Positions 7,758-28,599 of a stretch of 28,599 bases of DNA are shown in pieces; positions within the stretch are counted from its first letter, which is position 1; every line of letters starts with the position of its first letter. The stretch is taken from IMG/VR virus record IMGVR_UViG_3300017818_000077, positions 1-28,599 of that record; one strand, written 5' to 3'. The position numbers and the translations under genes were made by a program. Below the pieces are notes generated by a model. The model made no database searches and was not told the DNA's origin. It worked only from the letters and a program-made list of their open reading frames with translations. Source of the stretch: a virus.

Positions 7758-8135
7758 ATGTCCAAATACATAGATTTAGATTTAAAATTTCTACCACATC
7801 CACAAACAATGCGTGTGAATCATGTTGTGGGGAAAGCCGCTATCTTTCGTTCTATAAGTCATATACTTTTCACACGTCCTGGAGAAAGACTTTACAAACC
7901 TGACTTTGGCATCGGGATTCAAAATCAATTGTTTGAACCAAATGATTTTATTGGTATTGATTCTCTAAAAACAGATATCAGAGATCAAATAAAAAATTAT
8001 GAGAATCGTATTACTGTAACAAATCTTGAAATTACAAAAGAACTTTATAATCTTGATATAAAACTTTCTTTTTATATAAACACGGAACCATCAAATGAAA
8101 TAACATTTGAAAGGACTGTCAAACAGATTCGCTAA
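7758..8135 (+). CDS. 25: gp25-like baseplate wedge protein
   Basis: The 125-aa product has the length (T4 gp25 is ~132 aa) and hallmark of the gp25/IraD-like ('gp25-like lysozyme') family: RPGERLYKPDFGIGI at residues 40-54, preceded by a hydrophobic helix (residues 28-38) and followed by an acidic helix and two beta strands. In T4-like and other contractile injection systems gp25 is a structural wedge subunit that joins the gp6 ring and contacts the sheath; despite the family name it is not needed as a lysozyme. There is no Shine-Dalgarno sequence before ATG 7758, so reading probably continues from the gene upstream. The gp6-like gene follows after 3 nt. Confidence 0.95.
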   Translation: MSKYIDLDLKFLPHPQTMRVNHVVGKAAIFRSISHILFTRPGERLYKPDFGIGIQNQLFEPNDFIGIDSLKTDIRDQIKNYENRITVTNLEITKELYNLDIKLSFYINTEPSNEITFERTVKQIR

Positions 8136-12900: not shown

Positions 12901-15900
12901 AATGAATGTTGACCCACTTGAGCCAGATTTCTCAGATGATGGCGGTGGACCAAAAAGATGCCGTGCAGATTGGCATGATCATAATGCAAGGAACTTTTCA
13001 AATGAGCCAGCAACTGCATACATGCCTACGATATCTGGAAATACTATTGAATATCGTGGTTCTTATCTACCGACAACTGAAGTACTTACAAAGAATCGTG
13101 GATTTATTCAAATACAATATGTGCAACCAAGTGACATTGTTGCCACAATCAATGATAAGGGTGAAACAGTTTGGTTGAATCCAACTGAAGTTATTCGTCA
13201 GGAATATACCGGTTATATGTATCGAATTACAGATTATAACCGCATATCATTTACTGTTACACCAAGACAAAACTTAGTATTATTTGATGAACGTGCAAAG
13301 CCAGATATTAAAGCTGAGTTGTGGAAAGCAGAACGAATACAATTACCTAGAATGGTAAATCATAGTTTTGCTATTGTAGATCATAAATCAACTTCAATGA
13401 CGGATGATTCAATAACAGATTATATTCCTGTTACAAATTGTCATAAATTTTTAATTGAATATACAGGTTATGTTTATTGTTTACAGTTTGCTGATTATAA
13501 AGAAGGCATTGGAGCAACGGATAAATTCAGAGTTAATGAAGCAGACCTAAGCGCATTGCAAATTGCTTTAGAAATTCGTGATGAAAAAATGCTTCCTAAG
13601 GTTGATGTTCCCGCAGAGCAACCAACGATTTGGAATTATGACCATATAAAGAGTGGTATTCGTATTGATATGAGTAGCTTTACTTATAATATCGATGCAA
13701 ATAGTGCCGTACTTGGTATATCAAATACACGGTTTGAGGAAGCAAAACTAAATCATGCCAAAATGTTGAATATTGATGGTCCATTATTTGACCGCAATAT
13801 GGGTTGGTATGATAAATTAACTTTTGACAATACTAATCTAGCAGAGTTTTCCGACAGTGGTGAAAGATTTAAAGTATTTGCAACAAGAATGTATTCCGCT
13901 TCAGCAGTTGCGTTAACACCAAAACCTGTAGTGATTGAAACACCGCTAATATATCAGAAAGAAACTTTAGCAAATTATTCTGGTCAAATTGGTGGATTCC
14001 TACCAGATAGTCCTTATTTTGAAAAGGCAAATACAGCAAATGGTGAAATACAAGAAAAGTCCGGTGCAGACCTAACGCAAATTACTTATCTTGATTTTGG
14101 TGATCAAAGTGCAACCATGCAGCCAATGTCAACTCTATCTCAAGAAAATGATATTGGTTTGTATCCTAAGTTTTATAATCAAAAAATTGGTTGGGATAAT
14201 AGACCACTAGATCCACCATGGATGCCGTATGGTTTGTTTGATGCTGCCAATACAACTACGATTAATGTACGGACTCATCGATTTGATGCCGATGCAAATA
14301 CAGGCGCATTAACATTTGGACATACTATTGGAGATGCAAACTATACAGAACAGCCACATGAATTAGTAAGATTTAATAATTTATTTGATTCAATTAAATT
14401 TGATTTTACATTTGATAAAACACATGCAAGATATAAAACGAATGAGCAAAAGGTATTTGCAGTACAAACACTATCAAGTGAAGCAGAAGGTAAAGCAAGA
14501 GCAAAGTATGGAGGCTCTGAACAAATACGCATTCGTGAAAACTTTGGTACTGCTATTGTCGCAACGATTAAAAACTACAGAATAGACCCAAAAAAAAAAT
14601 TCTTTGATAGCTTAATTTATACATTTGACCGTGATTATAATAAGGCACAATATAGTGAAGAAGGTTGGGATAGTGGTCATACACCAAGAAAACTTGATTT
14701 AGATTGTTTCCATTTATTCTTCGATGCAGATGGTATTGATTTTGGTAGATTGGACATTCAGTATTATACCCGTGACTTTGCACCAAAGACCTTAGATAAT
14801 ACAGGTTTAAACTTCACACAAACTGATACGAATTGGGATCGATACGGTTGGTTATATAAAGATTGCAGTTCACGATACACACCATTCCCCTATGACGAAA
14901 CTGACACAAGCATTCGACTTGACCTTGAATTAGTTTACGAGATTGATGGTTATGGTCCGCATAATTATGCTGCATCTTTTGATGATGGCGACAATCGATA
15001 TGGATTCAGTAGAACTAAGTTTCCGAAATTTGATAATAGCCGTGGTGCGATCAAACCATACATTGATCCAGAATATGTTATCACAATTGATGGCGGCCAC
15101 ACACCATTTGAGCCAACTGCTGGTGATTGTGTAATTGAAATTGATGCTGCACCATTTAGAGATGTTGAAGCAAAACTTGTCCTTGAACAACCACTAAAAT
15201 GGATTTCCGGACCTTTCTTTGACCGGGCTAAGAAAGATGTATCTTTCGATCAAATTTTTGAACCAAAGTTTGATGATATACATTCAGGTCATATACCTCC
15301 TTTAATTGCTGAATCTGAACAAGTATTAATAAATTATAATGATGTATATGTCTGTGACTATGGATGGATTTATCATCATACATTAGTTGATCGTTATTTG
15401 AAAATGAAGATACATCCATTCTTGAGTAGAAGAGGTGGATGTCCACCAGATACAACTGAAGGAACAGTTGCTGTAGGTGATTACTACTTCTACAATTTTG
15501 ACCATGCAGACATGAGTATTGAACTTGAAGATGTAGAAACAATTGTTTATCATGCACCATCAGAAGTCCAAGAAGTAATTGAAACAATTGAAATGCCAGA
15601 AATTGAAGTTGTAACTGAAATTCAATCCTGCAAGCCAATTCGATATACAGATACCATTGCATATTTTGAAAGATACTTCATTGAAGCCTACATGGGTGAT
15701 GATTGTCCTGGACCAGATCGTTTACAACGAAATGAGTTGTTCTTATGGCCATCGATCATTAATGATGTGAAATTAAACATGAGAGCATATGCATGGCAAG
15801 CAATCTATTCAGATGAAATAAATTCAAATACAGCAGAAGTGGTTGTAATTACAGATGGATTTGGAAGTACAAAACTTGATTCATATTGGGGTGAACATTA

Positions 15901-18900
15901 TATACATGTTGACCAACCAATACTTTCCAGAAATTGTGCAATTGCAAATGAAGATAAAATCAAAACATTCTATTGGACAAAAATTACAGATTGCCATTTG
16001 AGAGAACCGATTCGAGATTATACTCGAGACTTAGTATATACGGGCAAGGTAAGTCAACAAACAATTCAAATACAAGAGCGGTCACCGAATACATGGATTG
16101 TTGATGCAGAAACATGGCCAACATATACAGACGAACAATTAATTAATGGTGAATTTGGTCTTCTTGAAAAGTTGACTGAGGTTGAGATGGGAATTCGGTT
16201 AGATGATCGTTGGAAATATCTTGCTCTTGATGGTATTATTAATTCAAAACTATATGAACCAATTGGACGTGACATTCAAAAGAATGAAATTATTCAAAGT
16301 AACTTGCAGCACATACCAACTGTTCTTGTAAAAGGTTTGACAAAGATACGAAAAACTGATGAAGTAATAACAAACTCAACTGCAAACATTGTTTCTTCTT
16401 TAATTCGACATGCTGATCAAGATGTAGAAGCAATGTTTACAACTAAAGAAGAAAATGAAGACGAAATTATAATCAATATGAAAGACCGTGGTAAGATTAT
16501 TGATTTGAATGATATTATTGCGGCTAAATTCTGGAAGTATATTCAGCCAAATATGGACAATTATGAAATTACAGATAGTCCTTGGGAATTTATTCCAACT
16601 GTAAAAGCTACTGCTTTCAATGAAATTGAACAGTATCGTTCAAACAGTCTGATGGCTGTTGCAAATCCAGATACAGTTCAAAGTACAAGAATTAAAAAGA
16701 AAAAGGACAAGGCAAATACTGCAAATTCAATTAGTCCTACAATGCCACCAGCTAAGGAATCACCAAGAATTGATAGCCGTGATGACTTCCATCGAATGAT
16801 TGATGCACAGTTTCGGCTTGATGATAATCCAGAATTAGAATATGTGATGAATCTGAGAGACCGCTGGATGTTATTGGATTTAGATGATATCATTGCACCA
16901 AGATTCTTTGAGTTGCTACCTGCACGACCACAAATTTATACTATTTCTGATTATGTTGATGAGTATATTCCGACTGTAAGAGCAGTTGCATTTAATGAAA
17001 TTGAACAATATCGCAATAATGTTATGACTGCAACATATGAATCAATGACAACAGTTCCATTTACTCAATCAGTTGAAACTATACAAACAACTGATGAAGA
17101 AAATGAAATTGAATATGTCATTGATATTCTAGACAGAAATAAAGCCATTGATCCAAATAAGATTATTGCTGCAAAATATTATGATTATATTGCACCAAAT
17201 ATGATGAGATATCCAATTTTGGATTATGTGCTTGATCGAATTCCTGTGGTGACTGTTGATAGTAGACCATCAATCCGTGTAAAGAATGAACATAAGTATA
17301 ACTTGCAGGCAAATCTATTCTTTGCAACAACATTTACTGGTGAGGACCTGCATCAAGAGATTGATGTATCCCATGATACACATGAAAACAATGAAGTCGA
17401 ATATGTAATTAACATGTTTGACCGATGGCGCACAATACCTCTTAATGAAAAACCTGTTGAGGGCCGTTGGGAAAATTGGATTATAACTAAGAAATCTTTG
17501 ATTTATCCTATTGTTGATGATAAAAATGGTTATATGCCAACCGTAAGAGTTGATCCATTACCATCAATTATACCAACAAGAGAAGAAAAGCACGACCTTC
17601 AAAGCAATACATTCCCATATACTGTAATGACAGGAGATTTCTTATCTTCTGTAGTTGAAATGAAACAAATAGTTGATGAACATACTGAACTTGAACATGT
17701 AGTAACATTGTGGGCAGATTATACAATTAATCTAGCAGATAGTATTGGTCCTTGGTATGATGAAGTAATAACTGAAGCACTTCTTGAAACGAAACTAAGA
17801 GACAAATATTATACAGCACATACTCCGAAGTTCAAAACACTTCCTGAAATTGAAGTTGTCCATGAACATACTGCAAATGTAGAATACTTTACAACATCAG
17901 TAATGTATGATGAAGCAACATTTAATGATGTAAGTGGTGAAGTTGAACTTGAAGGTGAACATGAAAGACTTATTCATATACCTGATCGGCATCGATTAGT
18001 TAACTTGAATGATCGTATGCCACATTATCTTGCAGATGAATATATTCATGACAGTGTATGGTTTGATTTAGGAAAACGAATTACATGGGATGATGGCTAT
18101 GCAATGCCAAGAATGACAATTGATAGTAGACCTTCAATTGAATCACTACGAACATATCATCATGATATTCGATCAAATACATGGCTGTTTGAAACAACAT
18201 CACACGATTCATATATTGATCAATCATTTGAAACTACACCAATTAATGATCTTGAGTTTGAGAATAAGATTGTACAACGAGCGCCATATTTTGATTTGAC
18301 AAAACCAATACCAATCAATCAATGGTTTGGTATGGGATTTGCTCAAGAAATTACTGATGAATGGACCAAATTAAAGTTGACTGATTGGGTTGGAGATAAA
18401 GCAATCTTTGGTGCAGTTGACCCAGAAGTTTATATTATAAATGCAAATACAGTAAGCATGGAACCTGAATATGATTTTGTTTACACCGCACTTGAAGAAC
18501 AGTCACTATATGTGAATTTGGGCCCAACAACTGAATATCAAGAATTGAATAATGATGTATTCATGTATAATGATAGTAAAACTTTTGGTATGGAAAGACA
18601 AACGAAATCATGGTTTAAAGATTGGATACTTGCTGATTATCTGAATCATCGTCTACGTCCAAATGCAACAATACCAACCGTTGCTCCAGGACCTCTATCA
18701 AATTACGAAGCAGAACAAAGACTGGTTAACCGACCAGTGCATTCGGCATATGGGCCTCAACAATGGAAACAAGATCGTTGGACATTTAAAGTTTCTACAG
18801 ATCCTCAAACAGTTACATGCTATACTGAGTTTACTCTTGATACATTTGTTGAAGGCCATATGATTTATACTGGTACTGAAATTCGTGCTGAAACTCAAAT

Positions 18901-20179
18901 AAATGCAGAGATGTTACCAAATGAATACGATGAAGACGGTAATATAATTTCAAGAATTCAACTTGATGAGCAAAGATTGATCATGTTCTATCCTGTTGGT
19001 ATTGAAAAATATGGTAAGAATAAAGATAAGTTAACTTGGAAGATGTCTGCTAAAGATTGGGTATCTGAATACATGACGAAACCAATTGAAGAGTTTATTC
19101 ATATTCCAGTTGATGTATTTGACATGGCAGATATTCGAACTGAAAGTGAAATTTATTCTCAAATGCCAAATGCAAATAATGTTTCTGGTAATACATGTTT
19201 TACAAAAGTTGATGAACAAAGACTGACGATGGAATATCTTGTTGATGGTTCACCATTTGCAAATTCAATAACATTCCATGATTCATATGGTTCACAAAGA
19301 CTTGGTGTTTACTATCCAAAAGATGCTTGTTTGCCTTTAGGATCTCGCTCCGAAGCTTTCAATCAATATATAAAGGCATCAAATGTCAAGCTTCAGGGAG
19401 TTGATGCATTATTGCCATTGATTGATGATGCAACAGTGAAAGCATTTTCTCAAGATCCGGGTAATACTCATGGTAGTAATACTTCAACAACTGTTTACCA
19501 TAAAAACTTATTTTTTGATAAATCTGGTCCAGCATATTTGCTTGATAAAAATCGAAACTTTTTCACTGAGTTAAATGATTTAACAGCAAACACCGCAAAT
19601 AATGGACCTCGAGCAAATCGTGATATTGAAATGGCATCATTTGAAAGATATGAATTTCGAATCACTGATATTGCCAATACACATGCAAATGGAGTATTTG
19701 CTTTGGGTTTAGCAGATGTATATGAAAAAAATCGTGCAGATGCGGCGAACTTAATTTTTGGTGATGCGAATTCAACATATATGGTTGACGGAGTTAAATA
19801 TACAAATTGGGCTGATTATCAAGCAGACTTTGCAAATGGTTCAAATGCAGTAATTACATTCCATCCAACAATTGAATTCTTACATACAAAAGGATTGAAT
19901 GCGAATACTGCAAATGGAGATACTTGGGAAAAGAGAACAGGTGTTTATAATACACCTAGTTGCGACATAAAAACTGGTAATACTGTTGCAAATACATTCG
20001 AAATATTCTATTTCACAACAGCAAATAATGAAATCTTTAGTGCGGGAGGAATTATCAGGATTTACGAACTAAATATGTTAGAGGCTTATGATTTTACTAT
20101 AAATAAAAAAGAGTACTTAGATAATATACGAACATTGCCAGAAATAAATGATTATGTAAGTTCTGACTGTATTGCGTGA
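9980..20179 (+). CDS. Giant baseplate wedge protein in the gp7 position (3399 aa)
   Basis: This 3399-aa protein lies between the gp6-like and gp8-like genes, where T4 gene 7 (1032 aa) lies, so a gp7-analogous wedge role is inferred from order. Residues 10-36 (FPSYFLEQYPQFVKFIEEYY) and ~143-196 (RRVDPNTL, KRGTEDSMYWFFRIFF, YYPKVNILRLSD) match, from memory, a domain found at the N-terminus of large baseplate/structural proteins of marine T4-like phages. Beyond that the body is acidic, rich in Asn, Asp, Thr and Tyr, and looks like serial beta-rich modules. Residues ~1028-1190 resemble a degenerate Hint/intein domain. Residues ~2067-2758 hold seven ~95-aa tandem repeats, probably with an eighth after them. 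Residues ~2968-3120 are an 84-aa duplication. No stop or frameshift interrupts it. Translation is coupled to the gp6-like gene by ATGA. It may replace both gp7 and parts of gp9-gp11, or reach outward as a fibre scaffold; neither is shown. Confidence 0.88.
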   Translation: MSSPRDLIESQFPSYFLEQYPQFVKFIEEYYDFLESSIVVFNEPKRCKPGDVLYGSLSKAKAIVKIAADNKFYFDYQTENNTFYKNEVVLNGSTGEIYVIKNVYQNIFSFAKNMEKETAYDTVRSLYKKYFKRDISLDHSIFRRVDPNTLTKRILDYYQKRGTEDSMYWFFRIFFDDDIELYYPKVNILRLSDTNHIQRRWMQIVYDVSLERFYKTRIVGVKSKATATVRATEVRNRHSNTRAFLDLIFINGNFVENEEIIGYDIITGQEKARSFVRKTAGKLKILDGGIGHFMKDEFGFADGVGEVVWQDEYSVTQIKVLNPGYLHSPGDVIEFDNEYRGATAFANAEVQTVQTDYQFSDYAFHLNTVMKYQQVSSFLHMNLTDFIANNSPTIFENAHSASQLPDTWKKLGPIDKLQINKSGLNYKFAPAAKVINTNKVAHITKYFDLTFDLQHPNTYLMDANTFVIIDGEPAYFQGVKSISNNIFLSNTNLLTEDFHVHRFIAPRWLEANNRIATANIQFYTSSNTLELSDILFDTYNKNEVMNLPVKALHSWEGLANVSQIEPELGYGISRVQATQAGLMARIDDKISFLDKPELREYDNPNILHGLTAEVELEESILFDPIPFFKENNSNLSSEKHIQDNYYYQTYSYEIITSLKPDDIDMNLFDDLHPAGFIAFVRNRIDWEMQQHLKVTAFPRVEIYVETAKCMIDTHEAIQRIQITHKKMEAQSTEERDFYTRVEVDNTADNTIKETEVYPRFEEVAFVNAFEAFKFYVEDVLIRPESSTFTEFRQCLGGNLTFDHGSTPTDLLDLEITFDSIETEPPWGRFDGTGGCELTGYGTTKEYQKLIREQFHYDGHVAIESFVKLINIEDKANWKADIIEAFGGRIGDRLDQPINNHVATVEEIIERTVGNNPGKRILIRDSMGEASKVFFDSEYSYNWQENKYYDAFPVNFTENPYWLWDLDKSAYNAAAMNVDPLEPDFSDDGGGPKRCRADWHDHNARNFSNEPATAYMPTISGNTIEYRGSYLPTTEVLTKNRGFIQIQYVQPSDIVATINDKGETVWLNPTEVIRQEYTGYMYRITDYNRISFTVTPRQNLVLFDERAKPDIKAELWKAERIQLPRMVNHSFAIVDHKSTSMTDDSITDYIPVTNCHKFLIEYTGYVYCLQFADYKEGIGATDKFRVNEADLSALQIALEIRDEKMLPKVDVPAEQPTIWNYDHIKSGIRIDMSSFTYNIDANSAVLGISNTRFEEAKLNHAKMLNIDGPLFDRNMGWYDKLTFDNTNLAEFSDSGERFKVFATRMYSASAVALTPKPVVIETPLIYQKETLANYSGQIGGFLPDSPYFEKANTANGEIQEKSGADLTQITYLDFGDQSATMQPMSTLSQENDIGLYPKFYNQKIGWDNRPLDPPWMPYGLFDAANTTTINVRTHRFDADANTGALTFGHTIGDANYTEQPHELVRFNNLFDSIKFDFTFDKTHARYKTNEQKVFAVQTLSSEAEGKARAKYGGSEQIRIRENFGTAIVATIKNYRIDPKKKFFDSLIYTFDRDYNKAQYSEEGWDSGHTPRKLDLDCFHLFFDADGIDFGRLDIQYYTRDFAPKTLDNTGLNFTQTDTNWDRYGWLYKDCSSRYTPFPYDETDTSIRLDLELVYEIDGYGPHNYAASFDDGDNRYGFSRTKFPKFDNSRGAIKPYIDPEYVITIDGGHTPFEPTAGDCVIEIDAAPFRDVEAKLVLEQPLKWISGPFFDRAKKDVSFDQIFEPKFDDIHSGHIPPLIAESEQVLINYNDVYVCDYGWIYHHTLVDRYLKMKIHPFLSRRGGCPPDTTEGTVAVGDYYFYNFDHADMSIELEDVETIVYHAPSEVQEVIETIEMPEIEVVTEIQSCKPIRYTDTIAYFERYFIEAYMGDDCPGPDRLQRNELFLWPSIINDVKLNMRAYAWQAIYSDEINSNTAEVVVITDGFGSTKLDSYWGEHYIHVDQPILSRNCAIANEDKIKTFYWTKITDCHLREPIRDYTRDLVYTGKVSQQTIQIQERSPNTWIVDAETWPTYTDEQLINGEFGLLEKLTEVEMGIRLDDRWKYLALDGIINSKLYEPIGRDIQKNEIIQSNLQHIPTVLVKGLTKIRKTDEVITNSTANIVSSLIRHADQDVEAMFTTKEENEDEIIINMKDRGKIIDLNDIIAAKFWKYIQPNMDNYEITDSPWEFIPTVKATAFNEIEQYRSNSLMAVANPDTVQSTRIKKKKDKANTANSISPTMPPAKESPRIDSRDDFHRMIDAQFRLDDNPELEYVMNLRDRWMLLDLDDIIAPRFFELLPARPQIYTISDYVDEYIPTVRAVAFNEIEQYRNNVMTATYESMTTVPFTQSVETIQTTDEENEIEYVIDILDRNKAIDPNKIIAAKYYDYIAPNMMRYPILDYVLDRIPVVTVDSRPSIRVKNEHKYNLQANLFFATTFTGEDLHQEIDVSHDTHENNEVEYVINMFDRWRTIPLNEKPVEGRWENWIITKKSLIYPIVDDKNGYMPTVRVDPLPSIIPTREEKHDLQSNTFPYTVMTGDFLSSVVEMKQIVDEHTELEHVVTLWADYTINLADSIGPWYDEVITEALLETKLRDKYYTAHTPKFKTLPEIEVVHEHTANVEYFTTSVMYDEATFNDVSGEVELEGEHERLIHIPDRHRLVNLNDRMPHYLADEYIHDSVWFDLGKRITWDDGYAMPRMTIDSRPSIESLRTYHHDIRSNTWLFETTSHDSYIDQSFETTPINDLEFENKIVQRAPYFDLTKPIPINQWFGMGFAQEITDEWTKLKLTDWVGDKAIFGAVDPEVYIINANTVSMEPEYDFVYTALEEQSLYVNLGPTTEYQELNNDVFMYNDSKTFGMERQTKSWFKDWILADYLNHRLRPNATIPTVAPGPLSNYEAEQRLVNRPVHSAYGPQQWKQDRWTFKVSTDPQTVTCYTEFTLDTFVEGHMIYTGTEIRAETQINAEMLPNEYDEDGNIISRIQLDEQRLIMFYPVGIEKYGKNKDKLTWKMSAKDWVSEYMTKPIEEFIHIPVDVFDMADIRTESEIYSQMPNANNVSGNTCFTKVDEQRLTMEYLVDGSPFANSITFHDSYGSQRLGVYYPKDACLPLGSRSEAFNQYIKASNVKLQGVDALLPLIDDATVKAFSQDPGNTHGSNTSTTVYHKNLFFDKSGPAYLLDKNRNFFTELNDLTANTANNGPRANRDIEMASFERYEFRITDIANTHANGVFALGLADVYEKNRADAANLIFGDANSTYMVDGVKYTNWADYQADFANGSNAVITFHPTIEFLHTKGLNANTANGDTWEKRTGVYNTPSCDIKTGNTVANTFEIFYFTTANNEIFSAGGIIRIYELNMLEAYDFTINKKEYLDNIRTLPEINDYVSSDCIA
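13061..13540 (+). other. Degenerate Hint/intein-like domain inside the giant wedge protein
   Basis: Residues ~1028-1190 follow the order of a Hint (intein N-terminal splicing) fold. A start-like segment S1028...TTEVLTKNRGFIQI resembles intein block A, with Ser in the place of Cys1 and the T-x-x-L-T-K-x-R-G pattern. Next come a PSDIVATINDKGE strand pair, EYTGYMYRI, FTVTPRQNLVLF (block B, with the usual TPxH His replaced by Gln1097), and a late EYTGYVYCLQF like block F. The terminal His-Asn and following Cys/Ser/Thr needed for splicing are not seen. What I see is motif order and spacing in ~160 aa; that it is a fold relic without splicing activity is inference. Confidence 0.4.
16178..18253 (+). 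repeat. Seven ~95-aa degenerate tandem protein repeats
   Basis: Within the giant wedge protein, copies begin near residues 2067, 2160, 2285, 2376, 2472, 2570 and 2660 (nt 16178, 16457, 16832, 17105, 17393, 17687, 17957), spaced 93, 125, 91, 96, 98 and 90 residues. Each opens with E-x-E-[YH]-V-[IMV] or a variant, then D-R and often DLNDIIAAK or similar. A Tyr-x-Ile-x-Asp segment and IPTV/MPTV follow, then in several copies DSRPSI or FNEIEQYR. The second copy has an ~30-aa Lys-rich insertion (KKKKDKANTANS). A weaker eighth copy seems to start at residue 2759 (nt 18254). The DNA copies have diverged, so this is an old duplication. Confidence 0.75.
18881..19315 (+). repeat. Two-copy 84-residue duplication near the C-terminus
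   Basis: Residues 2968 onward (IRAETQINAEM ... LDEQRLIMFYPVG) and 3052 onward (IRTESEIYSQM ... VDEQRLTMEYLVDG) align over about 60-80 residues, offset by 84 residues. This family differs from the ~95-aa repeats upstream. The pair suggests the protein grew by successive module duplications. Confidence 0.6.
20098..20105 (+). promoter_or_regulatory. Possible T4-type late promoter (TATAAATA) upstream of the gp8-like gene
   Basis: An exact TATAAATA lies in the last codons of the giant gene, 108 nt before the gp8-like ATG. In T4 this octamer is the whole late promoter. The spacing would give a ~100-nt leader. In DNA this AT-rich several chance copies are expected (others occur inside genes, as at 3230 and 7388), so support is weak and rests on the position before a gene with its own strong ribosome-binding site. 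Confidence 0.22.
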
Positions 20180-20213: not shown

Positions 20214-22721
20214 ATGCCAGCATTAGTGCATACCACATTCCGTGTTAGTAATGCTAAACAATTTCGTGAAAGTTTTGAAGAAAAGAAAGAAAACGGTATT
20301 GGTGGTTATGTTCCAGCACACTTGTATGCTTTCAGTGTTGCAAATAATCAAATGGAACTTTCTGCCACAACGGTAGCTAATACCGATATTAATAGTATTC
20401 CAACCTATGCTTTGGATGATCAAATTTTCTTGTTCATTGGTAGAGTTGGAAAATGGAGCCAATTTGACCATGCCGCATATGAAGTGGATGGTACAATTGA
20501 TCCAAACTACAACGAGAATAACCCTCCTGCTCCTGTTGATAGTCCGAAGGATTCACACTTTAATCACTGGGATGATATGATTGCAGCAAAAAAAGTTGCT
20601 GCTTCTGAAGTATCTCATGTAATTAAAAGAGAAAGAGCAGATGAAATTCGTGCTGGTGTAAGAAACTGGAAAGCTGGTTTGCGCTATGATGAATATGATA
20701 GCCGTGATCCATTCATGTTTGATGATGACATGTTGATCCACACCACAAACGATAAGTTCCGTGTTTATAAATGTATCAAGCGTGGAACCGGTAAGTTTAC
20801 AAGAATTGATAACGTCCCCGGTGTATTAGCTGATTATTCCAACAATAGTGGTGGTGCTAATACTGTATGGATGTGGAACTATCAGTCAACAAGAGAGCCA
20901 TTACTAAGAGATATTTCTTGTGATGATCCAAATGGAAAGTGGACGGAAGATTTCATGTACACTGGACCAACTGCTGACGATGCCTATAATGACGGCTATC
21001 AATGGAAATATTTCTATACAATTGATGCAGGTCAAGCATTGAAGTTCGTAACAACTTCATATATTCCTGTAAAGAGATTGCGCAAAGAAAATGGTGATAT
21101 TATTGATGATTCTTCTGACCAATATGTAGTAGAAGAAGCTTCCATTCCTGGAGCGATTCTTAATGTTGTTACATTGAAGAAAGATGAAAACGGTTATGAT
21201 TCAACTGGACAACGATATGGATACGATACAAGAGGCGGTGATGGTTACTTCCAAACAGCATTCAAAAGTGTAAGAATCCAATCGTCTTTTAGTTCGTTGG
21301 CAAATACTATGCAGTTTGATGTTACTCTTCCTTCTGCACCAGCTGCACCAACAAATGCGCCAAAATGGCCAAATCCAGAAATTGCTCAATTGAATGCTGG
21401 ATTTGATACAGCAGTCCCAGGTAGAAATCAATTTGATACTCAAAGTGTAGGTGGTCAAGCCCATACTTGGATTAATAACTTAAACGGCAATGACCTTGAA
21501 GGATATGGTATTGTAATTACAGGTGCTGATCCTGGTACAATTTTTGATAATGAAGACTTTACACGATATGTGTATCCAATTGATGCAGCATTATGTACAA
21601 CGCCAGGTACTTTCCATATTAAGCAAGATTTCCTCAAAAGAATTTCTGGAAAAGTTTCTAGAGATCAAAATCCTAGATTACCAATTGTTGCTGGTCCTCC
21701 ACATGGAACCTGGAATGAACTTGGTGGTAATAACGTTTCAATTGCAATTCATCCAATTATTAATATTGAATCAAATTTCCAGAGTACAACTGAATCAGAT
21801 CCTGTTGATGCGTTTCAGGCATATGCAATCTGTGAACCTTTAGCTGATGTAACTGCTACACCGTTCCCAGTATATCATCAACAAAATCCAGGTCGTATCA
21901 TTGATGCGTATGTCCAAAATCCAGGACGTTACCACTACAGAATTGATAAAACTATGGTTGCAAATAACACCTTAACAGATACTGCATCAGGTGGTACAGC
22001 AAATTCTGCAGTAATGTGGGCATGTATTCCTCCTGTCGGTGGACATGGTTGGGATCCTGTAGAAGAACTTGGTGGATTTAACGTCATGATTAATGCACGA
22101 TTCGAAGGTGACGAAGCTGACGAATTTACTGTAAAGAACGAATTCAGAAAGATTGGTATTCTAAAGAATCCTCTCCAGTATGATACTCCGTTTGGACCAG
22201 GTGCAAATACAGACTTGAATCAACTTTGGCAATCACCGTTTGGATATGAAGAATTGTTCAGAGAGTACAAAACTGATCAATGTTATCGCATATTCTTGAA
22301 TGGTAATCCTACTGTTGGAGCAGTAACAGGTACCGGTCCTTTGAGATACGAGCCTGATATGGATGTTGAATTTATTTCAACTAAAGCCATTACCGGTGTA
22401 ACTGGTGAACCATATTCCATCGGTGACGTTGTTGCTAAAGCAAGAGTTGTAGATCATGATGATGTGCAACATCGTGTACGTTTCATTAAGCCACGAAAAG
22501 ATTGGGGTACAATTCTCCGAGGTGGTGATTTTGAAATCAAATCAGTAACAAAGCACTCTGTTGAAAACGAAAGTGTAACAGGTAATACAAAGAACACTCA
22601 TACATCTGAAACTCCAGGTATGAAGCCGTTCTCTGGAAAAATCCTATACATTGAAAACAGAAGTATGGTTTCTCGTTCTGAGAATCAAACTGAAGACTTG
22701 AAGATTAGTATCCAGTTCTAA
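20214..22721 (+). CDS. 8: gp8-like baseplate wedge protein
   Basis: The 835-aa product shows the conserved landmarks of T4-like gp8. These are FRVSNAKQFRESF at residues 9-21, FLFIGRVGKW near 72-81, a PPAPVDS linker and a W-x-D-M-I-A-A-K-K helix (residues 119-127), DGYQWKYFYTI at 260-270 followed by TSYIPV, and the ending SGKILYIENR ... SENQTEDLKISIQF at about 807-835. gp8 is a dimeric wedge subunit bridging gp7, gp10 and gp6. T4 gp8 is 334 aa, so this version carries large insertions, mostly between residues ~290 and ~720. It is the last gene of the + unit and is followed by a terminator. Confidence 0.92.
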   Translation: MPALVHTTFRVSNAKQFRESFEEKKENGIGGYVPAHLYAFSVANNQMELSATTVANTDINSIPTYALDDQIFLFIGRVGKWSQFDHAAYEVDGTIDPNYNENNPPAPVDSPKDSHFNHWDDMIAAKKVAASEVSHVIKRERADEIRAGVRNWKAGLRYDEYDSRDPFMFDDDMLIHTTNDKFRVYKCIKRGTGKFTRIDNVPGVLADYSNNSGGANTVWMWNYQSTREPLLRDISCDDPNGKWTEDFMYTGPTADDAYNDGYQWKYFYTIDAGQALKFVTTSYIPVKRLRKENGDIIDDSSDQYVVEEASIPGAILNVVTLKKDENGYDSTGQRYGYDTRGGDGYFQTAFKSVRIQSSFSSLANTMQFDVTLPSAPAAPTNAPKWPNPEIAQLNAGFDTAVPGRNQFDTQSVGGQAHTWINNLNGNDLEGYGIVITGADPGTIFDNEDFTRYVYPIDAALCTTPGTFHIKQDFLKRISGKVSRDQNPRLPIVAGPPHGTWNELGGNNVSIAIHPIINIESNFQSTTESDPVDAFQAYAICEPLADVTATPFPVYHQQNPGRIIDAYVQNPGRYHYRIDKTMVANNTLTDTASGGTANSAVMWACIPPVGGHGWDPVEELGGFNVMINARFEGDEADEFTVKNEFRKIGILKNPLQYDTPFGPGANTDLNQLWQSPFGYEELFREYKTDQCYRIFLNGNPTVGAVTGTGPLRYEPDMDVEFISTKAITGVTGEPYSIGDVVAKARVVDHDDVQHRVRFIKPRKDWGTILRGGDFEIKSVTKHSVENESVTGNTKNTHTSETPGMKPFSGKILYIENRSMVSRSENQTEDLKISIQF

Positions 22722-22776: not shown

Positions 22777-24033
22777 TTAAATTATGGAGAGTTTGAATTG
22801 TGAAACAGTTCTTCCGAAGAGATGGTCAAGATTTGAGCCACTTCCGTTATAGCATCGTCCGTACACCCCCGCTCCCATCCAATTAACCTGTCGATACCAA
22901 TGCATACCACCCCAACCCATTTGAGCAGAACACCAATCAGAGTAGGTACTTCCGTTGTGGGCAGTTATTTGATCATTCGCAGAAATTGAACCATCATTTG
23001 AAAAATTAACCAATGTTTTTCTTGCTGCTAATGCATTCAAACGATTGTAGCCTATTGTTGCTTCACAGCCCGGCAAACGAGTTACCTTTGATCGATGTCC
23101 TGCCGTACTCAACGTTGCTCTTTGAAGATAGCCAATAATGTTATGATGATAATAAGCTTCGTAGTCGGTTGGATTTGGTGATTTAGTGTAGTCAATTAAA
23201 TAATCTGTTTTCTTTTTTAAGTGTGTGCCACACCCGTTAACTAGTTCAATCTTAACTTGATGTGATGTATAGCCAAAGGTTATAGGTGGTTTTGTATAAA
23301 TCAATATATCAACTAGTCCGCTTGGCTTGTCAATATCATTAGTTAAATACACATACTTATTTGCAGTAAGGTTTACACGTTGTCCCCATGGTTTTGGAGA
23401 ATATCTTGGTTTAATGATCGCCTCACTGTGAAAAGCATAAGACATATCAGTAATTACAACACCACCAGGACCACCGTTTGCATAAAATGTGTAGTGTAAA
23501 CCTCCATTATTTTCAAGATGCGGAACAGGTGTATAAGGTGAATTGGAAATTACAGTATCGTAATTTGTACTCATATAACCCATATCAAAAATCTGACGTA
23601 GGTATCCATGATCATCTTTTGTGATTTGAAATCTTGTACCTACTGCTTTCCACCTACCAATACTCATGTCAAAAATATTACCACTTCCATTATTAACATT
23701 CGTTAAATCTATAGGAAGGTTCCAACATTTTGCTTGACATGCTATACCATCAATTACAATATCCCATTGAACATCAACATATGGTATTGGCGTTTTCAAC
23801 CAATCCAACGTGACGGGTTCAAGTAATGATTGTTTGTTGACCAAACCTTTATCAATTAATACACCATCAAAAGGTGGTACAGAACTTGCACCATAGAAAT
23901 CTTTAATACCTATTTTACCACTTGTAGGTATACCAGTACTGGCTCCATAATATGCTTTTAAATTAGGATCAGTTCTGGTATACTCTGTTTGAATATCACT
24001 TAAAGTAATTTGACCTGATGATTGTAGTGTCAT
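22777..24033 (-). CDS. Putative tail-fibre / receptor-binding protein
   Basis: This 418-aa protein starts with a short module common at the head of phage tail-collar and fibre proteins: SGQITLSDIQTEY (residues 6-18) and a second copy SGKIGIKDFYGAS (38-50), each a Ser-Gly-x-Ile/[LI]-x-D/F-Y-G-A-S unit. The remaining ~365 residues are beta-rich, with many Tyr, Gly, Trp and some Cys, and end in FKLSII; no enzyme motif is seen. The start ATG overlaps the stop of the S74 fibre gene (ATGA, 24030-24033), so the two are made together. The likely role is a distal adhesin that binds the host surface; family-level function is inferred from the N-terminal motif and the neighbour. Confidence 0.75.
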   Translation of the reverse strand: MTLQSSGQITLSDIQTEYTRTDPNLKAYYGASTGIPTSGKIGIKDFYGASSVPPFDGVLIDKGLVNKQSLLEPVTLDWLKTPIPYVDVQWDIVIDGIACQAKCWNLPIDLTNVNNGSGNIFDMSIGRWKAVGTRFQITKDDHGYLRQIFDMGYMSTNYDTVISNSPYTPVPHLENNGGLHYTFYANGGPGGVVITDMSYAFHSEAIIKPRYSPKPWGQRVNLTANKYVYLTNDIDKPSGLVDILIYTKPPITFGYTSHQVKIELVNGCGTHLKKKTDYLIDYTKSPNPTDYEAYYHHNIIGYLQRATLSTAGHRSKVTRLPGCEATIGYNRLNALAARKTLVNFSNDGSISANDQITAHNGSTYSDWCSAQMGWGGMHWYRQVNWMGAGVYGRCYNGSGSNLDHLFGRTVSQFKLSII

Positions 24034-24353
24034 TTGTTTTTAAGTTCATCAATTTCTTGTTTAAGTTCTTGAATTGCTTTGAGCAAAAGCACAGAAAGTT
24101 TAGGATAATCAACAGTTAAATAATTTTCACCTGATACTGATACACCTTCACCATTATCGTCTACTGGCGCAAGTCTCACTAACTCTGGCATAACTTTTTC
24201 GAGTTGCTGTGCGCTAACACCAATATGGCTATTTGTATCAAATCCCAAATCATTTGCTGTTGAATTATATGAAAAGGCAAATGTATCAAGGTCTGAAATT
24301 TTATCAAGTGCATTTTCAATTGGACTCAATACTGTTTTAAGTCGATCATCAGA
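24030..24353 (-). other. S74 self-cleaving chaperone domain
   Basis: The Ser659-Asp-Asp-Arg-Leu-Lys664 segment keeps the six-residue spacing of the Ser/Lys dyad known from endosialidase (Ser911/Lys916). Cleavage is therefore predicted before Ser659, releasing a ~107-aa fragment with a C-terminal coiled coil. The motif is seen directly; activity is inferred from the family. Confidence 0.85.
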
Positions 24354-26327
24354 TGCTGCAGCAAGAATATCTCCTGTCATTGATTTAATATCACCATCTG
24401 CAGTGATTGTTGATGCACCAACAATTGGATTTGTCAACATATCAAGACCAGTTGAACCTATTTTACAAGTCAAATCACCATTGGTAAAGATACCAATATG
24501 TCCAGCAGGTACAGTTTCTTCGGAAGGTGTTCGTGCTTTGTCACTGAGTAAGATACCATTGCTAAGATAATTTCTTGTTGCAATATCTTCAATGGCATGT
24601 GCATACATCCAAGGTGCAGCAATATTAACTGAATCTGGTATTTGTCCACCAAGAACAGGTAATGAATGTTCATGAGCTATTGATGGCCCAAGACCAATAC
24701 CTGAATTGTCAAGTCCTGTTTCACCAGATATAGCATCATTTGGATAGCCTACACTTGTTTTTGGACCAAGAAGAATACTTCGATTATGTTCAATACCATC
24801 AAATGGTGGTGTAGTTAAACTAATTAAGCTTCCATCAAAATCAACATAGAACAATAAGTTTGTTAGACGATCACGAATTAATCTACCCACTCCAATTGCA
24901 TCAACAATATTTGTAGCACCGTCAAGCTCAAAATTACCATCACTCTTTGGCTTATAAATTTGCATTGGTGTTGATGATAGATCAAAGATATATTCTTCGT
25001 ATACATCTGGTGCAAAGTTTTCAAATTTGATATCAGAGAATCGAGCGCCTTGTGAGAGACAACCATATCCATATGATTTCTTACCACGAAACTTTTCAAA
25101 TCTTGGATCATCTTTAAGATCAAATTCAATTAAAGTATTTGCATCAAATGTTGTTTCATCATCTTGTGTTGTCCAACATTTAATTGAATCACCTTCTCTG
25201 CGAATTTTAATTCTTGTACCATTTGTCATTGTTGACCAATTGGCATTAGCAACCTTATGTGGCACTTGTGCTGTTTTATCATGAATTTTAGCACCATCTG
25301 ATTTATTATAATTATAATAAATTGCCCAAGATACACCATTAGAATCATGATTTCTTATAGCAGATAATGTATATTCAATACCGGCTTCTTCAACATATGC
25401 AATGACTAATCCCATTCGATCATTATCCGCACCAGCAGCACCGGCTGCCGCAGTCAATTGAACGTCAAGTTGATAATCATCAAATTCCTTTGAACTTAAA
25501 AATCCAACATATGTACTTGTATTAACTAAACAATCAATGTAGGCATTTGCCGCATCATAAGAAAATGCATTCATTTCACTTGCTTTTGGTCCGCTAGTAG
25601 AGTGTGAGAATCTTTTCCAACTATTGAATATAGTTGCGGCACTCTGACCACTTGATAATGCGGTTGCCAAGTCACCTGAATTTGTAGGTAAATATGTTTG
25701 AAATAAAATCCATTCAGGTGATGCTTCTCTTGAATTATCTTTATTAATGATATTAACTTGATTTCTTAAACCAATGCCATTTGATTTTGATATAAGTTCT
25801 TCAATTTCAGAATCAGTTCTTACATTTACTGATCCTTTTGTAAGAGCAGATCCATTCCATTGTAGAAATTCATTACTTGAAGTTGAGAAACCTGCCGCTG
25901 GTTTTGTTACTTTACTTGAAACAGATGTTAGAATTGAAGCAATATCACTATCATTACTTTTTAATTCATTTTCAAGTTCCTTTAATGTATCATAAGCAGA
26001 ACTTGCACCACCAAGTAAATCATTAAATTTATCAGTGACATACTCATTGATACCTTTTGCTGTTACCAATGTATGATCATTAAGTGAACTCATGTTTGTA
26101 GAAATTGCACCAATTGCAGGACCTGTTCCAATTTGAATTGAAGTATTTGCAGTTAACTGCTGAACAGAACAATTGATAAAATTTAATGAACGATTTGGAT
26201 CAAAACGGACAAGAGCATTTGGAGAGCCAATGGCAGTTGCTGAATTATTCTCAGCAACTAAATCATTAATACGATACATCCATTCACCGAATGTATTCGT
26301 GGTAACTAAACTTTGAATAGAAGACAT
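24030..26327 (-). CDS. Long tail fibre with C-terminal S74 intramolecular chaperone
   Basis: The product is 765 aa. Residues ~50-140 match typical tail-fibre stems (SIQIGTGPAIGAIST, LVTAKGINEYV), followed by a coiled-coil-like stretch. Residues ~255-437 look like a jelly-roll, concanavalin-like carbohydrate-binding domain (DDYQLDVQLTA, DRMGLVIAYV, ISQ/LSQGARFSDIKFENF-type strands). The last 107 residues form a Peptidase_S74 domain: ASDDRLKTVLSPIENAL, then IGVSAQQLEKVMPELV and LLLKAIQELKQEIDEL. S74 domains fold the trimer and then cut themselves off. ATG 26325-26327 has a weak GGTGA upstream. Confidence 0.88.
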   Translation of the reverse strand: MSSIQSLVTTNTFGEWMYRINDLVAENNSATAIGSPNALVRFDPNRSLNFINCSVQQLTANTSIQIGTGPAIGAISTNMSSLNDHTLVTAKGINEYVTDKFNDLLGGASSAYDTLKELENELKSNDSDIASILTSVSSKVTKPAAGFSTSSNEFLQWNGSALTKGSVNVRTDSEIEELISKSNGIGLRNQVNIINKDNSREASPEWILFQTYLPTNSGDLATALSSGQSAATIFNSWKRFSHSTSGPKASEMNAFSYDAANAYIDCLVNTSTYVGFLSSKEFDDYQLDVQLTAAAGAAGADNDRMGLVIAYVEEAGIEYTLSAIRNHDSNGVSWAIYYNYNKSDGAKIHDKTAQVPHKVANANWSTMTNGTRIKIRREGDSIKCWTTQDDETTFDANTLIEFDLKDDPRFEKFRGKKSYGYGCLSQGARFSDIKFENFAPDVYEEYIFDLSSTPMQIYKPKSDGNFELDGATNIVDAIGVGRLIRDRLTNLLFYVDFDGSLISLTTPPFDGIEHNRSILLGPKTSVGYPNDAISGETGLDNSGIGLGPSIAHEHSLPVLGGQIPDSVNIAAPWMYAHAIEDIATRNYLSNGILLSDKARTPSEETVPAGHIGIFTNGDLTCKIGSTGLDMLTNPIVGASTITADGDIKSMTGDILAAASDDRLKTVLSPIENALDKISDLDTFAFSYNSTANDLGFDTNSHIGVSAQQLEKVMPELVRLAPVDDNGEGVSVSGENYLTVDYPKLSVLLLKAIQELKQEIDELKNK

Positions 26328-26423: not shown

Positions 26424-26729
26424 ATGCCAATTGATCCAGATGTACAAATAGAACTTGATGCAATTAATACCATGTTAAGCTCAATCAATACGCAAATTGC
26501 ATCGATTAATTCTTCATTGTCAACATTAAATACTGGTCTTTCAGATCTTGGAGACCAAGCAGATGCTCAAGGTGATGCAATTGCGGCACAACAACAAGCA
26601 AATGCTGATGCTGACGCCGCAAATGCGGCAGCTATGGCATCATCACCTGATGAAAAGTGGATCGACTTTGACAATGATCCTGACGGTGTGTATGTAACTT
26701 CTGGTGAAAAAGTAATGAGAGAACCTTAA
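26424..26729 (+). CDS. 101-aa heptad-repeat coiled-coil protein
   Basis: The strong AGGAGGT lies 7 nt or so before ATG 26424. Residues 11-46 hold a near-perfect heptad: Leu/Ile at 11, 14, 18, 21, 25, 28, 32, 35, 39 and 42, with Asn at 15, 22, 29 and 36 and Ser/Thr right after each. Residues ~46-77 are Ala/Gln/Asp-rich, and the end is acidic (DFDNDPDGVYVTSGEKV). It has no Cys and no membrane segment. It looks like a rod-like oligomer, perhaps a fibre, whisker or chaperone partner for the divergent fibre genes. Its stop overlaps the stop of the convergent zinc-protein gene (TTAA, 26726-26729). The function is unknown. Confidence 0.75.
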   Translation: MPIDPDVQIELDAINTMLSSINTQIASINSSLSTLNTGLSDLGDQADAQGDAIAAQQQANADADAANAAAMASSPDEKWIDFDNDPDGVYVTSGEKVMREP

Positions 26730-27220
26730 TACAACAAACGGTTCTGCATTCGTTTGAATTCAATCTCAAAGTCTGAGCCTCGTTTCGCCAGAAATTCCGC
26801 ATAAATCTTACAGCAGATTTCAACACCACGTCCTCTTGGCTCAACTTCATTGCGAAGTCCTTCAAGTACAGACCTTGCAAAGTTTCCTGGTGTGTTGGCA
26901 AGGACTTCCATGATTGGTGACCACTTGTTGTTAAAACGTTCTCTTCTTCTTCGAGCACGTTCTTCAATCTTTTTGTTGTGTCGCATTTTCTTGCGAAGGT
27001 CATCCAAAGCATGTTTCATTGGCTTACCAATGGTCGCATCATTCGTTTTTTCAACACAAGTAGTACCAACAATATATTCTTGACCTCTTGCATCTTCAAT
27101 ATGACAGAGATATTTGATTGGTCGTCCGCAGTGATTACAGTGTTCACCACCAACAGTTAGGCGGGTAAAGGTGTAGTTTGGTGTTGAGCCGGTGAGTGTT
27201 TCTTCAAATGGATGTGACAT
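26726..27220 (-). CDS. 164-aa Cys-rich putative zinc-binding protein
   Basis: The ATG at 27218-27220 is chosen because AAAGGAG (27227-27233) is correctly placed 6 nt upstream and a promoter lies before it. A longer frame from TTG 27250 would begin at the predicted transcript start. Residues 25-58 read GEHCNHCGRPIKY, LCHIED and YIVGTTCVEK, so Cys28, Cys31, Cys39/His40 and Cys55 could hold one zinc. Residues 75-98 are very basic (KKIEERARRRRERF) and may bind nucleic acid. I recall similar CxxCG...G-x-x-C-V-E-K proteins, of unknown role, in unrelated phages. The gene is convergent with the 101-aa gene and lies directly downstream of the cyclase gene on the same strand. Confidence 0.85.
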   Translation of the reverse strand: MSHPFEETLTGSTPNYTFTRLTVGGEHCNHCGRPIKYLCHIEDARGQEYIVGTTCVEKTNDATIGKPMKHALDDLRKKMRHNKKIEERARRRRERFNNKWSPIMEVLANTPGNFARSVLEGLRNEVEPRGRGVEICCKIYAEFLAKRGSDFEIEFKRMQNRLLY

Positions 27221-27252
27221 GACTTGCTCCTTTAGAGTTTGTGAATACAATG

Positions 27253-27281: not shown

Positions 27282-28599
27282 TCATAAAAATAAAATTCTT
27301 CTTCTTTCTGCTGACATATGCTCACCTTCATCCTCACAACGTTCAATATAGAGTTTCGCAACATAGTCAGATGGATCTTCTGCAATGACTTCTTTGAACA
27401 TTAAATCAGCACGAATAAATTCCGCATTCATGAACGCATCATATGCTCGATCAAAAAGCGGTAAAAGTCTCATTTTTCTTTCAATCATTGGTTCTGTATA
27501 AACATCCAAAAGTTGATAAATATCTGTTTTTTCTTCTTTGCCTTTTACTGCTACGCTATCGATCATTCGAAGCCGGTAGCGAGACTCTGGAAGCTTCTGG
27601 ACAGTATGTCCAGACAATAGCACCGGCACATTATAATACTTGGTTAATGCTTCTAATCGTGAAGCAAGATTAACCGCATCACCAATTACAGATGCCTCCA
27701 TTCGGTCATGCGTACCGAGTGTTCCTAACATCAATCTACCCGAGTTTACACCAACACCAATTTTAATTGGATCATAATTCGAATCAATTAAGTAATCATT
27801 AAACATATGAAGTTTTTTGATCATATCAATTGAACATTGAATAGCATCAGTAATATCATTATGAAAGATTGCCATGATACTATCACCAATAAATTTATTC
27901 ACGAAGCCATTGTTATTACGGACTATTGGTGTCATATGAATTAAGAAATCATTGATAAATTTAAAGTTTTCTTCTGGTGTCATTTTCTCACTGATTGTAG
28001 TAAACCCACGAATGTCTGTGAATAAAATTGACATATCATATTCTTTTTGATCACCAAGTGTTACATCAGTGATTCTTTTTTTATTCAGCAACAAATTCAA
28101 TTCTTCAGGTACAAATCTTGCATATGATTCTTTAAGTTTTAATTGGTCATTTAATTGGTCTGCTTCTGTTTGACGAATCTTGAGTGTTGCAGTAACACCT
28201 AACAAACAAATTAAACCACCTAATAAAAATTCAGAACTAGGTAATGCATCAAAAGGCACATTAAATTTTAAAATTAAAATATATTTTAATGGTATCAATG
28301 TTAAGAATATCATACTTGTCAATAAGGAAATAGAATAAGCCTTTTTATTTGTTACAGAGATGGCTGCATATACAATCAATGGAATTAATTGAATCATCCA
28401 AAAAATAATAATTACTAATGGTGGAATAAATGATGGACCTAATGGAATTTCAAGTAGAGGATATTCAATTAAATCGGTTTCAAATTTAGTTGGAAAGTTA
28501 AAAAATAAAATTATATTACCAATTAACGCAAGTCCAGCAATTGACTGAGTTCCAATTTGAATTTTTTGAAGAAGCGGATAAAATTTTTCAGATTGTATC
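27282..28599 (-). CDS. Membrane-bound class III adenylate/guanylate cyclase (5' partial)
   Basis: The frame stays open to the right edge. The 67 codons before Met 28397 contain no ATG and encode hydrophobic helices, so the true start lies outside. Numbered from that Met, transmembrane segments occur upstream of it and at about residues 1-16, 20-45 and 54-73. A linker helix of bacterial type (LKESYARFVPEELNLLL) follows, then a complete class III catalytic domain (~120-300). Its residues are metal Asp128 (ILFTDIRGFT) and Asp172 (NKFIGDSIMAIF), base-contact Lys168, and Asn243/Arg247 (VIGDAVNLASRLEAL). Ser236 occupies the base-selecting place, usually Asp or Thr. Residues ~305-355 look like a TPR-type helical pair. 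It would be a homodimer making cAMP (or another cyclic nucleotide) at the inner membrane. Confidence 0.93.
   Translation of the reverse strand, partial: IQSEKFYPLLQKIQIGTQSIAGLALIGNIILFFNFPTKFETDLIEYPLLEIPLGPSFIPPLVIIIFWMIQLIPLIVYAAISVTNKKAYSISLLTSMIFLTLIPLKYILILKFNVPFDALPSSEFLLGGLICLLGVTATLKIRQTEADQLNDQLKLKESYARFVPEELNLLLNKKRITDVTLGDQKEYDMSILFTDIRGFTTISEKMTPEENFKFINDFLIHMTPIVRNNNGFVNKFIGDSIMAIFHNDITDAIQCSIDMIKKLHMFNDYLIDSNYDPIKIGVGVNSGRLMLGTLGTHDRMEASVIGDAVNLASRLEALTKYYNVPVLLSGHTVQKLPESRYRLRMIDSVAVKGKEEKTDIYQLLDVYTEPMIERKMRLLPLFDRAYDAFMNAEFIRADLMFKEVIAEDPSDYVAKLYIERCEDEGEHMSAERRRILFL

Follow-up and report, generated by a model that had tools for sequence, protein, structure and literature searches.

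A receptor-type class III nucleotidyl cyclase gene beside baseplate and tail-fibre genes in a lineage of T4-like phages

Adenylate cyclases of phages have so far been reported as accessories of curli gene clusters. Such clusters in pelagiphages include an adenylate cyclase (PMC9599517), curli genes in phages have been described (PMC7029224, PMC9004378), and in the open-licence literature the known phage adenylate cyclases surfaced through curli papers only. The CHASE2-type cyclases of pelagiphages and of the Methylophilales phage Melnitz (HTVC008M, AGE60353; Melnitz, QZI95054; PMC9599517) are, like the one described here, membrane class III enzymes of T4-like phages (Kyanoviridae), are encoded near baseplate genes and, in most cases, have the same catalytic residues. 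They differ from it in having a CHASE2 sensor instead of a 7TMR-DISM-like one, in the separate clade formed by their catalytic domains, and in sitting in a curli cluster (csgF, csgG, csgB-like, FecR), which is absent from the lineage studied here.

Among bacterial enzymes, the class IIIb cyclases CyaC (Spirulina), OaPAC and CyaB (P. aeruginosa) share the fold and the active-site positions of the phage protein but differ from it in sensor domains and genomic setting. In domain order and size, the phage protein matches the bacterial 7TMR-DISM receptor adenylate cyclases (L192, L196, L197, L204, L205), proteins that combine 7TMR-DISMED2, 7TMR-DISM_7TM and a cyclase in the same layout and occur in genomes of Leptospirales and SAR324. 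The catalytic domains are ~46% identical and the C-terminal helical segment is common to both, whereas the phage sensor half can hardly be aligned to theirs by BLAST and falls below the Pfam cut-off; near the bacterial loci, no PilZ partners were detected with a profile built from the phage PilZ genes. In the open-licence literature, no paper on a comparable phage cassette, with a 7TMR-DISM-like cyclase and PilZ/SOUL genes, was found. CHASE2-type phage cyclases beside curli genes are already known; new in this lineage are a sensor of the 7TMR-DISM-like type, partner genes of the PilZ and SOUL families, and an independent origin.

The cyclase gene and its setting in the window

The window, that is, the whole stretch of DNA analysed (28,599 nt), is the entire IMG/VR virus record IMGVR_UViG_3300017818_000077, a linear fragment of a T4-like phage. 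The relevant features are as follows.

7758-8135 (+): gp25 baseplate wedge gene (PF04965 and PF21379 cover the gp25/gp6 pair; phrog_261, phrog_219)
8139-9983 (+): gp6 baseplate wedge gene (same matches)
20214-22721 (+): gp8-type baseplate wedge gene (PF09215; phrog_438, E=4.7e-62)
24030-26327 (-): tail-fibre gene with a Peptidase_S74 intramolecular chaperone (PF13884, 50.5 bits; many tail-fibre PHROGs)
26424-26729 (+): 101-aa coiled-coil-like ORF (weak tail-fibre PHROG match, E=0.0016)
26726-27250 (-): 174-aa ORF with a CxxC-containing segment, the downstream neighbour of the cyclase (weak PHROG matches, function unknown)
27282-28598 (-): 3' part of a receptor-type class III cyclase gene, 438 of ~710 codons, stop-free to the contig edge (PF00211; dN/dS 0.13-0.17)
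27288-27494 (-): C-terminal TPR-like helical segment (AlphaFold2 model, pLDDT 86.5, and alignment; also present in bacterial relatives)
27510-28043 (-): catalytic domain, PF00211 (E=4.5e-25; 82.4 bits against a cut-off of 21.9)
28016, 27896, 27884, 27692, 27671 and 27659 (-): first bases of the codons of D195, K235, D239, S303, N310 and R314, respectively
28191-28598 (-): last membrane helices of the 7TM region (hydropathy; collinear with the 7TMR-DISM_7TM region of bacterial cyclases)

The gp6 protein of the window is ~30% identical to its nearest sequenced relatives, those of Melnitz, HTVC008M and cyanophages, and the DNA around the cyclase has no match among 50,697 sequenced phages. The baseplate cluster also holds a single ORF of 3,399 codons (9980-20179), with counterparts of 2,986-3,391 codons in the relatives. 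The 174-aa ORF has its first ATG near 27220 and is conserved in the relative L002; in three other, more distant relatives (L004:4192-4689, L005:2128-2733 and L099:3169-3726, all on the minus strand), its place is taken by a convergent gene whose small product looks secreted and has no family matches. ORFs resembling GIY-YIG homing endonucleases, as judged by eye, were seen at L004:7175-7798, L005:4896-5825 and G001:43751-44431, two of the three near fibre/gp8 genes. As for clues to the host, no tRNA genes were detected on the window, on four relative contigs (scanned nearly in full) or on G004.

The cyclase gene lies at the very end of the fragment because the window is itself the whole database record. 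The contig end cuts the gene, so the ATG at 28397, which the first-pass annotation had taken for its start, is not the real one: in the relatives L002, L004 and L099 the full-length protein has 710 residues, of which the window holds residues 273-710, and the ~272 additional N-terminal residues comprise a signal peptide and an extracytoplasmic domain. In its other statements on the gene and its place, that annotation was accurate. The class III cyclase that it described, membrane-bound, with its active site intact and lying in a phage beside tail-fibre and baseplate genes, occurs at the same junction in seven viral contigs; the several membrane helices and the C-terminal helical part fused to the cyclase are present (hydropathy; AlphaFold2 model); and the distances given, ~60 nt to a phage-type gene and ~1 kb to tail-fibre genes, are right, the first ATG of the neighbouring ORF lying ~61 nt away and the tail-fibre gene starting at a distance of ~1 kb.

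In the relatives, the signal peptide is followed by the extracytoplasmic domain of ~150 aa (residues ~20-175); the seven long hydrophobic helices span residues 175-432 and the catalytic domain residues ~458-632, with the TPR-like helical segment behind it. The partial protein of the window retains hydrophobic segments at residues 15-33, 62-80, 96-114 and 118-136 (hydropathy). The count of seven membrane helices after the periplasmic domain agrees between hydropathy and a low-confidence full-length model (five sequences, pLDDT 38), which was used for helix counting only. The N-terminal sensor half matched nothing above cut-off in Pfam, NCBIfam or PHROGs; 7TMR-DISMED2 was detected in one relative only, at 15.6 bits (E=0.016) against a Pfam cut-off of 22, so that neither a 7TMR-DISMED2 nor a DISMED1 ectodomain is recognized above the Pfam cut-off and the sensor half falls outside the family as Pfam strictly defines it. 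In a profile comparison, this half was nevertheless collinear with the corresponding halves, ectodomain and 7TM region alike, of true 7TMR-DISM cyclases of bacteria over 349 columns (E=1.6e-4; the tool's own profile comparison gave E=6.4e-5), whereas ten block-shuffled and one reversed control all gave E values of 0.097 or worse (0.12 or worse for the shuffled ones). The collinear alignment, set against these controls, points to a strongly diverged 7TMR-DISM receptor as the most likely identity of the sensor half.

The ORF at 27282-28598 (-) does encode a class III cyclase. With residues numbered over the 438 counted from the contig edge, D195 and D239 are the metal ligands, K235 is purine-specifying, and N310 and R314 act on the transition state; these are the residues read earlier as Asp128, Asp172, Lys168, Asn243 and Arg247, a set correctly described as intact. 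All five are invariant across the six phage relatives and 78 other viral cyclases in an alignment of 164 cyclases. S303 occupies the purine-specifying Asp/Thr position, where class IIIb cyclases have Thr and where Thr is the commonest letter in the aligned bacterial relatives. Thr or Ser at this position marks class IIIb cyclases, and the phage protein has both the Lys and the Thr/Ser of a class IIIb adenylate cyclase at the purine-binding positions (K235, S303). An AlphaFold2 model of the last 299 residues, built from 25 sequences, reached a mean pLDDT of 86.5, and Foldseek searches with the modelled catalytic domain retrieved OaPAC, CyaC and P. aeruginosa CyaB (E ~1e-17 to 1e-15), with an rmsd of 1.8 A for CyaB. 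Judging from the sequence, the product is most likely cAMP, made from ATP.

The SOUL-PilZ-PilZ-cyclase cassette and its possible role

In L002, L004 and L099, the gene order is SOUL, PilZ1, PilZ2, cyclase. PilZ2 and the cyclase gene share a 4-base ATGA overlap in all three, and PilZ1 and PilZ2 overlap by ATGA in L004 and L099; L002 alone has, between the two PilZ genes, a 207-aa lysine-rich ORF (774-1397) without family matches. The PilZ genes score 25.4-34.9 bits against PF07238 (cut-off 22.5). As read from the alignment, all three PilZ2 proteins have the RxxxR motif (RGAER, RKQDR and RKEER) and the (D/N)xSxxG motif (DISSAG, DLSYAG and DISIIG), and the motif of PilZ1 is degenerate; both PilZ proteins are probable c-di-GMP receptors. 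The SOUL protein of L004 (129 bits) has a lipoprotein-like start, its lipobox being judged by eye. At the thresholds applied, none of the three partner proteins has a relative in sequenced phages or in PHROGs. Because the window ends before these genes, we infer their presence in its phage from the 89%-identical relative L002.

No diguanylate cyclase of the phage's own was detected on the contigs, GGDEF matches being sub-threshold cross-matches to the cyclase itself. The cyclic-nucleotide-binding domain of cAMP receptors (PF00027) is likewise absent from the seven contigs, which are fragments, and because of this absence the cAMP route would have to pass through the host.

With moderate confidence, we propose that these lytic T4-like phages carry a receptor-type class III adenylate cyclase that sets cAMP in response to a cue, and that the cassette retunes the second messengers of the host. 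The signal peptide would export the protein such that the diverged 7TMR-DISM-type domain faces the periplasm, the chain crosses the inner membrane seven times, and the class IIIb cyclase acts as a homodimer in the cytoplasm. During infection, an extracytoplasmic cue would set the activity of the cyclase, and cAMP would rise and act via the host's own receptors, of the CRP type. The cyclase would be made from one cassette with the two PilZ proteins, next to a SOUL-family lipoprotein, and given this combination of a cAMP cyclase and PilZ proteins, the cassette would shift the second-messenger state of the infected cell in the phage's favour, through surface attachment, motility, catabolite control or lysis timing. 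The coupling of the cyclase to PilZ suggests that the cassette links the two messengers, cAMP and c-di-GMP, in controlling the cell's surface behaviour or its metabolism, and host reprogramming by the phage cyclase is plausible. Since the relatives join the cyclase to two probable second-messenger receptor genes, the virus seems to arrive with a signalling kit of its own.

A bolder form of this proposal, put forward tentatively, is that the phages encode a complete sensing relay, from an exported seven-helix receptor to cAMP, coupled within the cassette to c-di-GMP-binding PilZ proteins, and that relays of this kind were built at least twice with unrelated sensors. If so, an infected cell would change its behaviour according to its surroundings, under phage control. 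Concrete genes are now at hand for asking what cAMP does for a lytic phage.

The cAMP might instead belong to a surface-lifestyle module parallel to the curli/CHASE2 loci, by which infected cells stick or aggregate and the progeny meet new hosts. The genes of curli-cluster cyclases likewise lie beside baseplate genes, PilZ proteins usually have a part in controlling biofilms and motility, and 'sibling capture' has been proposed for curli phages (PMC7029224). We consider this reading unlikely, however: the catalytic domains fall into different clades (see below), cultures of Melnitz showed no aggregation (PMC9004378), and there are no curli genes on any contig of the lineage. No CHASE2 sensor was matched in the studied lineage, and csgF, csgG and FecR gave no match next to its cyclase on six contigs; a curli module was accordingly rejected for it.

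A scan of viral contigs yielded at least 577 viral stretches that encode a class III cyclase. Among the best 80 of these loci (L111-L190), nearly all those with enough upstream sequence have CHASE2 and many have csgF, csgG or FecR; in a profile search of the same 80, PilZ partners were found in none outside the studied lineage. The spread of viral class III cyclases seems larger than the literature found describes. One of these loci, L112, is a viral contig of 3.6 kb whose cyclase shares 71% identity with the Thiomargarita enzyme; it may be host DNA labelled as viral by mistake.

Origin and ownership of the gene

In a tree of 164 catalytic domains, built with a quick method and containing long branches, the six phage sequences form one clade with a support of 100, nested inside a clade of 37 bacterial sequences from mixed phyla. 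The 78 other viral sequences, together with HTVC008M and Melnitz, fall in a separate clade (support 99). The separate clades, along with the CHASE2 sensors in nearly all of the best viral loci with enough upstream sequence, indicate that phages acquired sensor cyclases at least twice and that the studied lineage is an independent capture. Phage cyclases have been reported as curli-cluster accessories, and this second capture, with another sensor and with PilZ partners, combined with the at least 577 viral contigs, makes phage control of cyclic-nucleotide levels look like a recurrent strategy and not a curiosity.

The cyclase gene is under purifying selection, with a dN/dS of 0.13-0.21 over up to 710 codons, and between lineages the protein is ~72-78% identical, compared with ~44% for gp6 or gp8. 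Phages often pick up host genes, and the cyclase could be a passenger of bacterial origin that makes no difference to infection. We regard this as highly improbable, given that purifying selection extends over at least three divergent lineages, between which gp6 is only ~44% identical, that the catalytic residues are all intact, and that the baseplate genes are less well conserved than the cyclase.

The seven viral contigs with the same junction of cyclase and tail genes are the window and six others, four from the first search and two more found via the PilZ gene. One relative (L003/G002) is 99.6% identical to the window over 20,983 bases, junction included. Another, G005 (84 kb), combines the junction with genes for a DNA polymerase (41% identical to marine cyanophage polymerases), UvsX, a DnaB-like helicase, a primase and both subunits of ribonucleotide reductase. 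In GC and GC3, the cassette falls inside the range spanned by the phage genes or close to it.

The first-pass annotation asked for confirmation that phage genes lie beyond the cyclase, and this was borne out in part. In the relatives, PilZ and SOUL genes lie there and, in L004, the farthest-reaching contig, so does an RCC1-repeat ORF that matches phage PHROGs; beyond SOUL/PilZ, none of the seven contigs, which end within ~2 kb of the cyclase, carries an unmistakable phage hallmark gene. Searches of viral contigs with SOUL and RCC1, aimed at extending further, returned only contigs already known. Between G001 and G005, which begin at the same base, identity is 95-100% over SOUL-PilZ1 and ~65-77% from PilZ2 through the cyclase. 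The near-identical part corresponds to bases 1-627 of L002 and L099, with ~70% identity right after it and ~44% in gp6/gp8, and marks a recombination breakpoint inside the cassette. Because a near-identical SOUL-PilZ1 segment in two different phages breaks assemblies, recombination explains, at least in part, why the contigs end at the same place.

These data bear on the concern, raised by the first-pass annotation itself, that a piece of host chromosome was joined to a phage fragment at a prophage edge or through an assembly error. Such an origin would fit the ending of all contigs within that short distance on the far side of the cyclase, and the lack of relatives of SOUL and PilZ in the 50,697 sequenced phages. 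It is contradicted by the recurrence of the junction in seven contigs of several phage types, one of them a 99.6% copy over 21 kb; by the T4-like replication genes on one contig; by the fit of GC and GC3 to phage genes; and by the RCC1 ORF farther out. The shared ends have the simple cause just given, and virulent T4-like phages are not known to integrate. Given the seven contigs, the near-identical copy, the replication genes and the base composition, a chimera or prophage edge is very unlikely.

Substrate residues and the comparison with Pycsar

The PycC cyclases of Pycsar systems share the class III catalytic domain with the phage protein but differ in the specificity residues, and the phage locus lacks a PycTM/PycTIR effector and has a membrane receptor layout. 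The determinants of the cytidylate cyclase EaPycC are R142 and Q144, and the uridylate cyclase AnPycC has K104 at position -2 (PMC11224242); relative to the second metal-binding Asp, the phage protein has Lys at -4 and Ile at -2 and thus lacks the pyrimidine-specific residues of either. No adjacent cyclic-nucleotide-binding effector (PF00027) was detected on the seven fragmentary contigs. Pycsar identity was rejected on these grounds, the PycC matches arising through the shared domain, and the earlier suggestion that the cyclase floods a Pycsar receptor is not supported, as its residues are those of a purine cyclase. More generally, the idea that the enzyme's product would flood a defence receptor for cyclic nucleotides, of the Pycsar type or another, or serve as a decoy for it, is scarcely credible: PycC is itself a class III cyclase and every PADLOC PycC model matches, but only via the common domain, the residues are unlike those of characterised pyrimidine cyclases, seven-helix receptor signalling would be an odd design for a decoy, and a flood would activate, not block, a Pycsar effector.

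Substrate-binding positions vary elsewhere in the family. In 16 of the 77 bacterial relatives, including the Bacteroidota sequences L021, L030, L031, L032 and L035, Gln replaces the purine-specifying Lys, and the substrate of these cyclases may differ. In the Melnitz cyclase (L007:6726-8777), the Ser/Thr position holds Asp and the transition-state Asn is replaced by Ser; this enzyme may be impaired or altered. In two Thiotrichaceae sequences (L010 and L066), two cyclase domains of the same subfamily are encoded in tandem in a single ORF.
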